A model generated the notes under the pieces. It made no database searches and was not told the DNA's origin. It was given only the letters and a program-made list of their open reading frames with translations. Shown piece after piece: positions 28,965 through 55,090 of a DNA stretch of 64,000 nucleotides; position 1 is the first letter of the stretch; each line of letters starts with the position of its first letter. Both the position numbers and the translations under genes were made by a program. The stretch is from an uncultured Pelagibacteraceae bacterium (lineage in GTDB: Bacteria > Pseudomonadota > Alphaproteobacteria > Pelagibacterales > Pelagibacteraceae), in assembly GCA_902628565.1 (NCBI GenBank), contig CACONR010000001.1, positions 1 through 64,000 of the forward strand. Reading direction: 5' to 3'.

Positions 28965-30159
28965 GTCTCAAATTCAAAACTTTAATCATTTAAAAATACA
29001 CACTCAATTTTCAATATGTGAAGGAGCAATTAAAATTGATGACTTAAAAGAAATATCTAAAGAAAAAAAAATTAGATCTCTCGCTTTATGTGATACATCG
29101 AATTTATGTGGTGCCCTAGAATTTGCCGAAAAAATATCTAAAGTTGGAACTCAACCAATTATTGGTACTCAGATCAATTTTAAACTAGATGATACTATTG
29201 GTTTATTGCCATTATTCGCATTGAATGAAATTGGATATAAAAGAATAATTGAACTATCTTCATTATCATATCTTAATAATGATGGAACCTCGGATCCACA
29301 TTTAAATTTTGAGGAATTGTTAAACAATAATGAGGGAGTTGCCGTTTTTTCAGGAACAATAAATGGGTTAGTCGGTCAATTATTCAATAAAGGAAAATTT
29401 TCAGAAATTGAAAAATTATACTCTAAACTCAAACAAAAATATGGTGATAAATTTTATATAGAAATACAACGTCATGGAGATCAAAATGAAATTTCATTTG
29501 AAAAGTTTAATCTCTCGCAGTCTTTAAATTTAGAAATATCAATAATAGCCACTAACGAAGTTTTTTACTCAACCAAAGACATGTATGAAGCTCATGATGC
29601 ATTAATATGTATTAAAAATAAAACTTATGTAAATGAGAAGAATAGAATTAAATATTCAAATCAACATTATTTAAAAGATAGCCCTGAAATGTCAGAATTA
29701 TTTTCTGATTTACCTGAAGCTTTAGAAAATAACTATAATTTCCCGTATCGTTGTAATTTTCGACCACATTTTTCAAAGCCCATATTACCTGACATTAGTT
29801 CAGATAAAGGTAGAAATGCCGATGAGATATTAAAAAAAAACTCTTTGGATGGATTAAAAGACAAATTTAAAAATATTTTTAAAATACAGGGTCAGAATCT
29901 TTCTAAAAATGAAAAATTTTTACTTTACAAAGATAGATTAGATCATGAACTAGATATTATTATGCAAATGAAATATTCCAGTTATTTCTTAATTGTTTCT
30001 GATTATATTATATGGGCAAAAAAGAATGATATTCCTGTAGGGCCTGGAAGGGGATCTGGTGCAGGTTCTTTAGTGGCATGGTGTCTTTTAATAACAGATG
30101 TTGACCCAATAAAATTTAATCTTATTTTTGAAAGATTTTTAAATCCCGATCGTATTTAA
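28957..30159 (+). CDS. dnaE: DNA polymerase III alpha subunit, N-terminal fragment (PHP domain and part of palm)
   Basis: The first 400 residues of the replicative polymerase. The PHP domain starts at [17 protein letters not shown] (about 8-24), and the fragment reaches the palm motif [14 protein letters not shown] near 362-375 before ending at FLNPDRI and TAA (30157-30159). In other DnaE proteins the next residue is a conserved Ser followed by MPDFDIDF; the following codon here is exactly that Met. One C-to-A change (TCA to TAA) explains the break. The fragment lacks all catalytic aspartates and cannot polymerise on its own. Confidence 0.92.
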
Positions 30160-32373
30160 ATGCCAGACTTTGATATAGATTTTTGTGAGGAAAAAAGAGA
30201 TCTAGTTTTTGAATATTTAACTGAAAAGTATAAGGATAGTGTCGCTCATATAATTACTTTTGGAAAATTAAAAGCCAGAATGGTTATTAGAGATGTTGGG
30301 AGAGTATTAGGGTTATCCTATGGTTTTGTTGATACTATATCCAAAATGATACCTTTTGATCCTTCAAGACCGCAAAATTTAACAGAATGTATTGCTGGGG
30401 AGCCAAGACTTCAAAAATTAATTAAAGATGATCCAAGAGTTAAAAAACTTACAGAACTCTCTTTAAAACTAGAGGGATTGAATAGAAATGTTGCAACTCA
30501 TGCAGCGGGTGTTGTAATAGCTGATAGAAAATTACAGGAAGTTGTTCCTTTATATAAAGATGCATCGACAGATCTATTACTTCCCTCAACTCAATTCGAT
30601 ATGTATTCAGCTGAGGATGCTGGATTGATTAAATTTGATTTTTTAGGATTAAAAACATTAACAGTAATTAATAACACTCAAAAATTAATAAATAAAAAAG
30701 AAAAAGATTTTAATATTGAAAATATTAATTACGAAGATAAAAAAGTTTTTGAAATGTTATCTTCGGGTAATACAGTTGGCTTATTTCAAATTGAAAGTTC
30801 TGGAATGAGAGAAGCGTTAACTCATATGAAGCCTAATCATATTGAAGATATTATTGCATTAGTTGCTTTATATAGACCAGGTCCTATGAGTAATATACCG
30901 ACTTATAATGATTGTAAGCATGGCAAACAAGAACCAGATTATTTACACCCTTTATTAGAAGATATTTTAAAACCAACCTACGGCGTAATCATATATCAAG
31001 AACAAGTAATGCAAATTGCACAAAAATTGTCAGGTTTTACTGCTGGTCAAGCGGATATTTTAAGAAGAGCAATGGGAAAGAAAAAAAGATCTGAGCTTGA
31101 AAAACAAAAACAAAATTTTATTACAGGGGCTGTTAGAAATGGAATTAGCAGAGATGTGGCAGCTGGAATTTTTTTGAAAATAGAACCATTTGCAGAATAT
31201 GGATTTAATAAAAGTCATGCTGCTGCATATGCTATTATATCTTATCAAACAGCATATTTGAAAACTTATTATCCAAAAGAATTTATTGCTGCCTCGATGA
31301 CTATGGATATATCTAATCAAAATAAACTTAGTGAATTTTATGAAGAGCTTAAAAGATTGAATATTGAAATTGTTAGACCAGATATAAACCAATGTTTCGC
31401 AGATTTTAGAACCGAAAATGGTAAATTCTACTATGCTTTAGGTGCTATTAAAGCTGTAGGATTTGAAGCTGTTTCTAATATAGTTCAAGAGAGAATGAGT
31501 AAAGGACCATTTAAATCAATTAAAGATTTCTTAAATCGTTTAAATCCAAAAGATATTAACAAATTACAACTAGAGGGACTTGTTAAAGCAGGCGCTTTCG
31601 ATAATTTAAATACTAATCGACAATCTTTGTTTAATTCTATTCCTAATTTTATTACAAAATCAAAAAATATTTTTGAAAATAAATCTGCTAATCAAATTGA
31701 TTTATTTGGTGAAAATGCTGATGAAGAAGATGATATTACTACTAATATTGATGATTGGAAGTTTGAGGAAAGATTATCTAAAGAGTTTGAAGCAGTTGGT
31801 TTTTTTATTTCAGATCATCCATTAAATCAGTTTAAAGATATTTTTGATGATTATAATATTTACGATTATCAAAAATTTAAGAGCCAAGATGATCTAAAGG
31901 AATCAAATGTAGCTGCAACATTACTCAAAATGCAAGAGAGAAAAACTGCAAAAGGCAACCCTTATGCAGTCTTAAAGCTCACTGATTTATCTAGTGTTTT
32001 TGAGTTGTTTGTTTTTTCAGACACATTGGAATTAAATCGAGAAATTTTAAAAGAAGGAAATTCTTTTATTTTGACTTTGTTTAAATCTTCATCAGACTCA
32101 GAAAATAGATTTAAAAGATTTAATGTTCAAAAAATTGTATCTTTAAAAGATTTGTTAAACAGACCAATACAAGAGGTAACATTTAATTTAAAATCCACAA
32201 AAGAACTAGATGAGATATCAAAATATTTGCCTAAACAAGGAAATACATTGATAAAGATTAATATTAGTGACAATAAAAATGATTTAAAGTTTCACTTAAA
32301 AAAAAAGAGAAATATTGACAGAAAAACAATAAATATTTTAAGAAATAAGGAAATTTCAGCATTAATTGGATAA
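30160..32373 (+). CDS. dnaE: DNA polymerase III alpha subunit, C-terminal fragment (catalytic palm, fingers, beta-binding)
   Basis: The remaining 737 residues of DnaE, starting with the ATG immediately after the stop at 30157-30159. It begins with the metal-binding MPDFDIDFCEEKRD motif that carries two catalytic Asp, then shows LSYGFVDTISKMIP, the third catalytic Asp in LIKFDFLGLKTL (about 165-176), LYRPGPM (about 242-248), YGVIIYQEQVMQIA and the EYGFNKSHAAAYA finger segment. A C-terminal OB-fold region follows near 575-670. Together the two fragments give about 1138 residues, the normal length. Without read-through, re-initiation at the adjacent ATG would be needed to make this part. Confidence 0.92.
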   Translation: MPDFDIDFCEEKRDLVFEYLTEKYKDSVAHIITFGKLKARMVIRDVGRVLGLSYGFVDTISKMIPFDPSRPQNLTECIAGEPRLQKLIKDDPRVKKLTELSLKLEGLNRNVATHAAGVVIADRKLQEVVPLYKDASTDLLLPSTQFDMYSAEDAGLIKFDFLGLKTLTVINNTQKLINKKEKDFNIENINYEDKKVFEMLSSGNTVGLFQIESSGMREALTHMKPNHIEDIIALVALYRPGPMSNIPTYNDCKHGKQEPDYLHPLLEDILKPTYGVIIYQEQVMQIAQKLSGFTAGQADILRRAMGKKKRSELEKQKQNFITGAVRNGISRDVAAGIFLKIEPFAEYGFNKSHAAAYAIISYQTAYLKTYYPKEFIAASMTMDISNQNKLSEFYEELKRLNIEIVRPDINQCFADFRTENGKFYYALGAIKAVGFEAVSNIVQERMSKGPFKSIKDFLNRLNPKDINKLQLEGLVKAGAFDNLNTNRQSLFNSIPNFITKSKNIFENKSANQIDLFGENADEEDDITTNIDDWKFEERLSKEFEAVGFFISDHPLNQFKDIFDDYNIYDYQKFKSQDDLKESNVAATLLKMQERKTAKGNPYAVLKLTDLSSVFELFVFSDTLELNREILKEGNSFILTLFKSSSDSENRFKRFNVQKIVSLKDLLNRPIQEVTFNLKSTKELDEISKYLPKQGNTLIKINISDNKNDLKFHLKKKRNIDRKTINILRNKEISALIG

Positions 32374-32432
32374 TTAAGACTTGTCTAATTCAAAATTTCT
32401 TTGTAAATAATCTTCAATTTTAAATTAACTCG

Positions 32433-32504
32433 CACACAGTTTGTTGGTTTTAAACCTCCGGTCCTTAATTGGAAATAACTGTGGTGGCTCAACCGGGAAA
32501 AAAT
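32433..32504 (+). ncRNA. Candidate structured (pseudoknot) leader of rpsB
   Basis: Upstream of the likely rpsB start I see a long stem between CACACAGTT (32433-32441) and AACTGTGGTG (32477-32486) with one bulged G, an inner GGTT-TTA-AACC hairpin (32446-32456), and a loop CCGGT (32458-32462) that can pair with ACCGG (32492-32496) just 3' of the stem. The last pairing would form a pseudoknot 8 bases before the ATG at 32505, over the ribosome-binding region. This G+C-richer patch stands out from its surroundings. Autoregulatory leaders of S2 mRNA are known in other bacteria, so feedback by S2 is a reasonable inference. 32374-32432 shows no clear feature. Confidence 0.55.
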
Positions 32505-33320
32505 ATGAAGATACCAAATGTTACTATTCAACAACTATTAGAGGCAGGAGTTCATCTTGGTCACAAGACTTTAAGATGGAATCCAAAAATGAAGAAATAT
32601 ATATTTGGAAAAAGAGATAGTATTCACATTATCGACCTTACCCAAACTTTAGAATTAACTAAAATCGCTTTAGAAAAAGTTTACGAAACTATTTCAAACA
32701 ATGGAAAAATCTTGTTTGTATCAACTAAAAAACAAGCTTCTGAGGCAATTGCAGAAGTAGCGAAAGAAACAGACCAATATTTCGTAAATTATAGATGGTT
32801 AGGTGGTATGCTCACAAATTGGGGTACCATTTCAAATTCTATTAAAAAACTTAAAAAATTAGAGATAGATTTAGTCGCTGAGAATAGAGGATTTACAAAA
32901 AAAGAGCTTTTAAAAATGAGTGTAAAAAAAGATAAATTGCAAAGATCACTTGGAGGAATTGCTGAGATGAAAAAAGTTCCTGATTTAGTATTTATTATAG
33001 ATACAAATTACGAGTCACTTGCAATTCAAGAGTCAGTAAAATTAGGAATTCCAATAATTGCAATATTAGATAGCAACTCAAATCCTGATGGAATTGATTT
33101 TCCAATACCCGGCAATGATGACGCTAGAAGATCAATAGATCTATATTGTAATCTTATTAAAGAAACAATCATAGGTGCTAAAAAAGCTGCACCAGCGATT
33201 GAAACAAAAAAAGATACTGAAAAAAAAGAAAAAGTTGAAAAATCTAAAACAGTTGCTGAAACAGATCGAGAAAAACTGGAAAAAAAATTCTCTAAAAAAA
33301 AGCCTGAAAAACTAAATTAA
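32505..33320 (+). CDS. rpsB: Small ribosomal subunit protein S2 (uS2)
   Basis: Ribosomal protein S2 of the 30S subunit. The protein begins [29 protein letters not shown], matching the normal S2 N-terminus, so I choose the ATG at 32505 over an upstream in-frame TTG at 32469, whose twelve extra codons overlap the structured leader. The 271-residue product has [25 protein letters not shown] and [14 protein letters not shown] motifs and a Lys/Glu-rich C-terminal extension of about 45 residues. It is followed directly by tsf. Confidence 0.95.
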
Positions 33321-34172
33321 ATGAGTGATATAGATAAAGTAAAAAAACTTAGAGAGGCAACAGGCGCAGGATTTAAAGATTGTAATTTAGCAATTAAAGA
33401 ATCTGGAGGTGATTTAGATAAAGCTGTTGAAATTCTAAGAGTAAAAGGAATTTCAAAAGCTTCTAAAAAAATGTCAAGAGATGCAAAAGAGGGAGTTGTT
33501 GCGGTTAGTGGAGATCAAAATAAGACATCAATTATTGAAGTAAATTGTGAAACAGATTTTGTTGCTAAAAATGATGATTTTATAAATTTTGTTAAAGAAT
33601 TAAGCGAACTAAACAATCAAAATAACTCAGATGTTGAAAAATTAAAAAAATCTAAAATGAGAAATGATATTAATGTTGAGGAAAATTTAGTTGCTTTAAT
33701 TGCTAAGATCGGAGAAAAAATTACAATTGGCAAAACAAAAACAATTTCAAACTCTTCTTCAGTAAATTATCAATATTTACATACTATAGTGAAAGATAAT
33801 TTAGCTAAATTAGCTGTGATTGTTTCATTAGAAACTAAAGATAATTCTGAGACTGTAAAAACATTTGGTAAACAGTTATCAATGCACATAGCAGCATCAA
33901 ACCCTTTAGCTTTAGAATCTAAATTAATTGATAAAGCCATCATAGACAAAGAACAGGAATTAGTTACTGAAGAACTTAAAAATTCAGGAAAACCAGAGGA
34001 GATTGCGAAAAAAATTAGTTTAGGTAAGATGAATAAATTTAAAGAGGAAAATGCTCTTTTAACACAAGCTTGGGTTATGGAACCTAAGAAAAAAGTTCAA
34101 GATGTTTTAAAAGAACTTGCTATTAATGATTTAAAGATCAAGGAGTTTAGCAGAATTAAAATAGGGGAATAA
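33321..34172 (+). CDS. tsf: Elongation factor Ts
   Basis: EF-Ts is the nucleotide exchange factor of EF-Tu. The 283-residue protein starts with the UBA-like domain [33 protein letters not shown] (about 7-39), then has the exchange core [14 protein letters not shown] (about 74-87). It abuts rpsB upstream and frr downstream with no spacer. In most relatives pyrH (UMP kinase) stands between tsf and frr; it is not here. Confidence 0.97.
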
Positions 34173-42203: not shown

Positions 42204-42989
42204 ATGATAGGTTTATTTTTAGGTGATACAGATTTTTCAAAAATAGTTCTCAAAAAGTTGAAAAAACTAAAAAAGAAGTACTTCATAATTGATTTTTCTA
42301 AAAATAATGTATTTGCAAAAGAAAAAAACTCTTATCGAATAAGTATAGGAAAATTTGGCAAGATTATAGACTTAATTAAAAAGCAAAAGTCAAATAAAGT
42401 TCTTTTTGCTGGCAAAATCGCTAAACCAAAATTTTCTACATTAAGATTAGATTTAAAAGGTATTTATTATATGCCAAGCATAATAAAAGCTGCCAAAATA
42501 GGTGATGCAGCTATAATAAAAGCCATAATTAAGATTCTTAAAAATGAAAAAATTGAAGTTATAAGTTCAATTAATTTTAATCCCGAGTTAACCGGAAAAA
42601 AAGGTATACATACAAAGATAAAACCTTCTCGAAGAGATATTAAATCAATCAATCGAGGTATAAAATATTTAGCAAGAACTAATAGTTATGATCATATTCA
42701 GGCATTAATAGTAAAAGATAATAAGATAATAGCTAAAGAAGACAATAGAGGTACTAAAAAAATGATGTCTAGATTAAAGAATAATTCAGGCGGTATTTTA
42801 ATCAAATTTCCCAAAAAAAAACAAGACTTGAGAATGGATTTACCAACAATAGGGATCCAAACTATTAAAGACTGTAAAAAATATGAATTAAAAGGAATAG
42901 TTCTTAAATCTAAAAAAAATGTCTTTTTAGATAAAACTAAAAGTATTGAATTTGCAAATAAAAATAAAATTTTTATTTTGATAAAATGA
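42204..42989 (+). CDS. lpxI: UDP-2,3-diacylglucosamine pyrophosphatase LpxI
   Basis: LpxI (formerly DUF1009) hydrolyses UDP-2,3-diacylglucosamine to lipid X, replacing LpxH in alphaproteobacteria. The 261-residue protein has an N-terminal Rossmann-like domain and the family's KVLFAGKIAKPKF segment (about 66-79), GDAAIIKAI (about 103-111), and the C-terminal GGILIKFPKKKQDLRMDLPTIGIQTI (about 195-220) that carries the catalytic Asp. The position between lpxA and lpxB is diagnostic. Confidence 0.93.
   Translation: MIGLFLGDTDFSKIVLKKLKKLKKKYFIIDFSKNNVFAKEKNSYRISIGKFGKIIDLIKKQKSNKVLFAGKIAKPKFSTLRLDLKGIYYMPSIIKAAKIGDAAIIKAIIKILKNEKIEVISSINFNPELTGKKGIHTKIKPSRRDIKSINRGIKYLARTNSYDHIQALIVKDNKIIAKEDNRGTKKMMSRLKNNSGGILIKFPKKKQDLRMDLPTIGIQTIKDCKKYELKGIVLKSKKNVFLDKTKSIEFANKNKIFILIK

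Positions 42990-52638: not shown

Positions 52639-55090
<2,452 letters not shown>

Follow-up and report, generated by a model that had tools for sequence, protein, structure and literature searches.

Ribosomal protein S2 of E. coli represses its own operon through the mRNA leader, and the repression requires S1, according to a review (PMC10931766) whose account also places the ribosome-binding site outside the S2 operator and calls the mechanism of repression unclear. The text of Meyer et al. 2009 (PMC2704228) describes an rpsB motif as present in most Alphaproteobacteria and Gammaproteobacteria and reports it in the dnaE-rpsB gap of Candidatus Pelagibacter ubique, where it has a three-pair P2, a two-pair P3, and a five-pair pseudoknot between J2-3 and a 3′ extension of P1. 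In Rfam, the motif is modelled as RF01815, and the E. coli leader is matched by t44 (RF00127) with 83.5 bits.

The window (the whole 64,000-nt stretch of DNA analysed here) contains a leader of this kind in a genome of the Pelagibacteraceae. A sequence-only reading had proposed a pseudoknot leader controlling rpsB and had asked whether it belonged to a class already described. It does: this element is what Meyer et al. 2009 described as the rpsB motif and Rfam lists as RF01815. The leader structure is real and was correctly seen in substance, and an autoregulatory role is probable. Beyond the known motif, comparison of leader sequences points to an unusually short distance between pseudoknot and start codon in SAR11.

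Anatomy and class of the leader

The gap between dnaE and rpsB covers 32374-32504 (131 nt), and the pseudoknot leader fills its final 74 nt. The whole fold spans 32431-32496, with the rpsB ATG 8 nt beyond it at 32505. The features are as follows.

32381-32405, + strand: promoter-like boxes, TTGT (32381-32384) and TTGTA (32401-32405) with a 16-nt spacer, 25 nt before P1
32431-32441, + strand: P1 5′ strand, CGCACACAGUU, A32434 being bulged in the Rfam register
32446-32456, + strand: P2 hairpin, GGTT/AACC, 32446-32449 with 32453-32456
32458-32462, + strand: pseudoknot 5′ arm CCGGU, in the P2/P3 junction
32463-32472, + strand: P3, a two-pair hairpin, CC 32463-32464 with GG 32471-32472
32477-32486, + strand: P1 3′ strand, AACUGUGGUG
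32492-32496, + strand: pseudoknot 3′ arm ACCGG, at -13 to -9 relative to the ATG
32497-32504, + strand: linker between pseudoknot and start codon, 8 nt, GAAAAAAU, with no Shine-Dalgarno 4-mer
32505-33320, + strand: rpsB, ribosomal protein S2, 271 aa (TIGR01011, 315.4 bits, cut-off 76.3)
33321-34172, + strand: tsf, elongation factor Ts, directly after rpsB (TIGR00116, 248.2 bits, cut-off 104.05)

Direct reading of the DNA confirmed the outer stem with one bulge, the inner hairpin, and the CCGGT/ACCGG pairing ahead of the ATG, with P1 formed by 32433-32441 (CACACAGTT) and 32477-32486 (AACTGTGGTG). The single bulge stands, but the fixed side originally drawn for it does not, as it can be placed on either strand; the Rfam register bulges A32434 instead and has the pairs 32431-32486, 32432-32485, and 32433-32484. 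Each register has one variable pair (32-85 or 34-85), which is broken in 8 of the 65 distinct Pelagibacteraceae rows of the alignment described below (A1); that of the Rfam register, 32-85, is also broken in 92 of 96 rows from other Alphaproteobacteria. Covariation does not settle the side of the bulge, because A1 shows no variation at positions 31, 33, 84, and 86, and the P1 foot is best regarded as an asymmetric internal loop that has been conserved. As read from the aligned leaders, the fold is a three-way junction in which a pseudoknot starts from the strand between P2 and P3. The H-type pseudoknot first proposed was wrong, since in an H-type fold a hairpin loop pairs beside its own stem, with no inner stems, whereas the 5′ arm here is the strand between P2 and P3. 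The leader had also been described as a G+C-rich island, and this held: the G+C content is 0.478 at 32431-32497 vs 0.283 across the window, and only 0.7% of the 67-nt stretches of the window are equally rich.

RF01815 matches the window over all 132 model positions with 34.2 bits (E = 3.5e-5 in a 401-nt search). The Rfam check suggested for the leader was answered by a full-length match at the same place, but with a score under the gathering score of 40 bits, which is a curated threshold and no biological feature; for this reason, a default Rfam scan of the window reports only three tRNAs. P2 and P3 of the window are far shorter than those of the model, which fits the statement of Meyer et al. 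that both are very short in P. ubique (PMC2704228). Set beside the description in that paper's text (PMC2704228), the window shows the same taxonomic group, the same gap (129 nt in HTCC1062, 131 nt in the window), P1, short P2 and P3, and the five-pair knot, and no structural difference was found. The element also stands directly upstream of rpsB, its knot ending at 32496 ahead of the ATG of the TIGR01011 gene.

A search of 61 genomes (the genome of the window and its relatives) with stricter filters gave RF01815 matches at E ≤ 1 in 24, none above the cut-off, and 2 of the 25 listed places lie away from rpsB (G013:C4 and G053:C7). Among 14 named control genomes only Caulobacter is matched, below the cut-off, and 12 of 14 alphaproteobacterial loci are matched at E ≤ 1, 5 of them above it. 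Scores above the cut-off are reached by the Pelagibacteraceae relative L097 (40.5 bits) and, elsewhere in Alphaproteobacteria, for example by L140 (49.3 bits), L237 (45.9 bits), and L178 (45.5 bits), and there is no match at E ≤ 1 in L107 and L112, which belong to a second family within the SAR11 order. The t44 model has no match in 32250-32650 at E ≤ 10.

The genes run in the order rpsB, tsf, and frr (ribosome recycling factor), and tsf is expected, by analogy with E. coli, to be co-regulated with rpsB. The boxes at 32381-32405 look like the promoter of this operon, judging from their recurrence: the pattern TTG[TC]-N13..20-T[TA]GTA precedes P1 at 69 of 79 Pelagibacteraceae loci (L071 and L032 being omitted) vs 33 of 1580 mononucleotide shuffles, with a spacer of 15 or 16 nt in 66 of the 79. 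Transcription would then start near 32414-32416. A scan for the strict sigma-70 consensus upstream of rpsB gave nothing. On the other side of the gap, dnaE (DNA polymerase III alpha) has an in-frame TAA at 30157-30159, where a serine codon is found in all 6 relatives examined, and intact copies occur in relatives; our guess is a sequencing or amplification error of the draft genome.

Covariation in SAR11 and across Alphaproteobacteria

SAR11 leaders were gathered by an S2 protein scan, from which the best 80 of 572 loci were taken, in records labelled Pelagibacteraceae, Pelagibacter, or Pelagibacterales. The 79 with upstream DNA (L071 has none) and the window form alignment A1, with 80 rows, 65 of them distinct. 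In A1, 92.0% of the cells are paired and 41 cells are changed on both sides vs 11.6 ± 2.4 in shuffles, a number reached by 0 of 500; the count of further pair types does not exceed the shuffles (393 of 500 reach it). Both-side changes occur at 4 of the 9 counted pairs of P1, the weak pair 32-85 being one of the four, and amid these covarying pairs C32431 and C32433-A32436 at the foot of P1 are invariant across the 80 leaders. The first three pairs of P2 are firm and the fourth is kept in 16 of the 65 distinct rows; the third pair of P3 is weak, being paired in 22 of 65. In the pseudoknot, which joins J2-3 to the 3′ extension of P1 as in the described motif, 99.4% of the cells are paired, and a single pair shows compensation, from G-C to U-A, which occurs in L051 and L070. 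In the second family of the order (L106-L137), all 32 leaders match covariance model R1, the weakest with an E value of 0.011. The alignment of SAR11 rpsB leaders had been proposed as the comparison that could overturn the structure; the helices covary, and relatives seldom break them.

A sample of 144 genomes from the class, that of the window included, yielded S2 in 143. Upstream DNA was taken for 108 of the 142 other genomes with an rpsB match, 34 being left out, and as one of the 108 loci (L138) belongs to the family of the window, 107 leaders represent other Alphaproteobacteria. Model R2, built from 71 rows of which 37 are among these 107, matches 101 of them (96 of 100 and 5 of 7); for loci in no model-building alignment (L201-L245), the figure is 39 of 45. 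There is no R2 match in L217, L225, L226, L228, L243, and L245, and in L226, L228, and L243 complementary arms are still visible by eye.

In the alignment of 96 rows from other Alphaproteobacteria (A3), 91.9% of the cells are paired and 17 of 21 pairs show both-side changes, with 300 such cells (not independent events, because the rows partly share ancestry) vs 86.5 ± 8.0 in shuffles, reached by 0 of 500. Six of the 9 P1 pairs are changed on both sides, and P2 and P3 also covary. The pseudoknot is 99.6% paired, although A3 keeps three rows in which it is misaligned or gapped (L188, L196, and L236), and it has 10 both-side cells vs 0.5, with such changes at 4 of its 5 pairs. Its variants are CCAGU/ACUGG in 4 rows, CUGGU/ACCAG in 2, CCGAU/AUCGG and UCGGU/ACCGA in 1 each, and CUGGU/ACUAG, with a wobble pair, in one. 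A possible sixth pair, 57-97, has letters in both columns in only 9 rows, 7 of them paired. Three of the 96 rows score below 20 bits, no better than the stray hits of R2 within the window, which are located at 54098-54182 on the - strand (19.5 bits), 53676-53748 on the + strand (18.4 bits), and 42567-42609 on the + strand (14.8 bits). These three hits are taken as chance, and the first two read like coding region.

The E. coli leader shows no match to R1 at E ≤ 1 and a weak match to R2 (14.2 bits). By eye, however, its GGGGU/ACCCC pairing corresponds to this knot built from other bases, with P1 present and the whole placed upstream of rpsB-tsf.

Distance between pseudoknot and start codon

Spacing was measured from the end of the pseudoknot 3′ arm to the start codon, and Shine-Dalgarno 4-mers were counted either wholly after the arm (TAAG, AAGG, AGGA, GGAG, GAGG, and AGGT) or with the arm included (AAGG, AGGA, GGAG, and GAGG). 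All 80 Pelagibacteraceae leaders could be parsed, with a median of 8 nt and a range of 6-10 nt, and 78 of them have no 4-mer in or after the arm, the exceptions being L100 and L101 with AAGGA. L138, from a different genus of the family, has 10 nt and AAGGA. In the second family, 31 of 32 leaders were parsed (L114 was not), and the median is 9 nt (range 7-10 nt); none of the 31 has a 4-mer wholly after the arm, and all 31 have GGAG overlapping it, as CCGGAG. The other Alphaproteobacteria, of which 96 of 107 were parsed, show a median of 17 nt and a range of 2-31 nt; a 4-mer lies entirely beyond the arm in 84, only overlaps the arm in 9, and is absent in 3. Spacing of 10 nt or less occurs in 6 of these 96. 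E. coli and the 11 unparsed loci stand outside the count; in two of the latter (L158 and L227), the element lies some 60-80 nt farther upstream. By eye, E. coli has 24 nt including AGAGG between knot and AUG, whereas the window has 8 nt without such a core. A short distance between knot and AUG is thus the rule among the SAR11 leaders compared and occasional elsewhere. A literature search, judged by titles and the beginnings of abstracts, returned no treatment of this spacing in SAR11; in the text of Meyer et al., apart from its figure and alignments (PMC2704228), the word Shine-Dalgarno is absent, 'start codon' appears twice, and no discussion of spacing was seen.

The leader had been supposed to mask the ribosome-binding region. 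The knot does occupy the place of a Shine-Dalgarno sequence, but no actual Shine-Dalgarno lies there, since rpsB of the window has no 4-mer at -18 to -5. Among long open reading frames of the window, a core at these positions is found in 4 of 56 vs 30 of 299 internal in-frame ATGs, a rough count in which the leftmost ATG is assumed to be the start; the rarity of cores indicates that the missing core is general here and not peculiar to rpsB. The best duplex of the rpsB leader with the anti-Shine-Dalgarno is formed by GGUGG at 32483-32487 (-22 to -18), with -4.9 kcal/mol and a mismatch, compared with a median of -0.8 for the 56 reading frames, and this segment may contribute to 30S contact. A GGAGG in the P1 foot of many Alphaproteobacteria was considered as a decoy and dropped, the middle base being A, C, or T, so that exact Shine-Dalgarno pairing is not conserved.

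Mode of control and alternative readings

The data can be arranged in the following scheme. The rpsB-tsf mRNA would begin slightly upstream of P1, and its leader folds, as the covariation shows, into P1 capped with a three-way junction whose P2/P3 strand pairs just after P1. Free S2, probably together with S1, would bind and stabilise this fold as in E. coli, upon which translation of rpsB would stop and EF-Ts would also be lowered. As the 3′ arm of the knot at -13 to -9 should lie within the stretch that a 30S subunit covers during initiation, direct competition would be the simplest mechanism: no initiation with the knot formed, and with the knot open, initiation on an AUG that has no Shine-Dalgarno core. 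On this view, the knot and an initiating 30S subunit would exclude each other on a SAR11 leader. The blocking step may nevertheless be something other than simple occlusion, because the E. coli ribosome-binding site lies outside the operator and the mechanism there is described as unclear (PMC10931766).

We consider it very probable that the element represents the known rpsB (S2) leader in its SAR11 form and operates in S2 autorepression by this scheme; homology with E. coli makes S2 autoregulation in SAR11 probable. As to S1, 18 of 21 genomes from the order have long rpsA-like matches, all below the curated 577 bits (the best has 538), and the rpsA-type family also matches all 14 control genomes, archaea included, and is thus not specific for S1. 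A full-length match is absent in the assembly of the window, which is 73.6% complete, and in two others of the 21.

A further proposal, which falls just short of being probable in our view, is that the SAR11 S2 operator lies inside the ribosome-binding site. With 8-9 nt vs about 17 nt and no separate Shine-Dalgarno, the 3′ strand of the knot would overlap that sequence (as GGAG in the second family) or replace it (in Pelagibacteraceae), and control would be direct 30S competition, unlike in E. coli. The spacing may have shrunk in SAR11, and a few other Alphaproteobacteria also show overlap.

Two other modes of switching were discarded. Transcription attenuation was rejected as 32300-32560 contains no terminator-like site. 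In the second family, TGCTGT is common to the 3′ strands of P1 and P2 and suggested an alternative switch of mutually exclusive pairing, which was dropped by eye because L107 and L108 have P1 changed on both sides (CGTAAC/GTTACG) while P2 stays as GATAGC/GCTGTC.

SAR11 genomes have lost much regulation, and the fold might have been inherited while its regulation was lost on streamlining, leaving a fixed structural feature for mRNA stability or a standby or S1 landing site without S2 feedback. The position of the fold next to an AUG with no Shine-Dalgarno 4-mer, where it could itself serve initiation, agrees with this explanation. Nevertheless, the invariance of C32431 and C32433-A32436 over 80 leaders amid a covarying P1 is what would be expected of a protein site, and all 32 leaders of the second family keep the fold, so that we regard a purely structural role as improbable.

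A stand-alone small RNA with only a secondary link to rpsB is very unlikely. Rfam does type RF01815 and t44 as 'Gene; sRNA', and the E. coli annotation has tff, putative small RNA T44, before rpsB and overlapping the leader. However, the lack of a terminator-like site also speaks against a small RNA, and, as the 3′ arm stops 8 nt short of the ATG, any independent transcript would need to terminate where rpsB begins. The only strong copy in the incomplete genome of the window is moreover the one at rpsB (104.7 bits, the runner-up having 18.1); the leader sets themselves were chosen through the rpsB gene and cannot show absence of the element elsewhere.

Folding energy alone is insufficient to reject chance structure, as the minimum free energy is unremarkable (z = -0.45, with 64 of 200 shuffles folding as well). 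A mechanical test required an outer stem with 9 bp or more (one bulge allowed) together with a 5-bp pseudoknot rich in G+C. The real gap passes it, as do 5 of 500 dinucleotide shuffles made from the gap and 3 of 976 131-nt tiles of the window. Since energy cannot separate the fold from shuffles and some shuffles pass this test, the case rests on comparison. That the leader consists of chance inverted repeats within A+T-rich DNA is rejected by covariation and has a negligible probability, given that P1, P2, P3, and the pseudoknot show compensatory changes across many families and that sliding the pair partners by 1-3 columns destroys most of the pairing.

Collectively, about 220 leader sequences indicate that SAR11, among the most streamlined of free-living groups, has retained a ribosomal-protein operator. 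Should its compact spacing reflect direct occlusion, SAR11 leaders would offer a simple system for the unclear S2 mechanism, because knot and initiation site coincide in them; otherwise, the rpsB leader of SAR11 would be an ordinary, previously described element.
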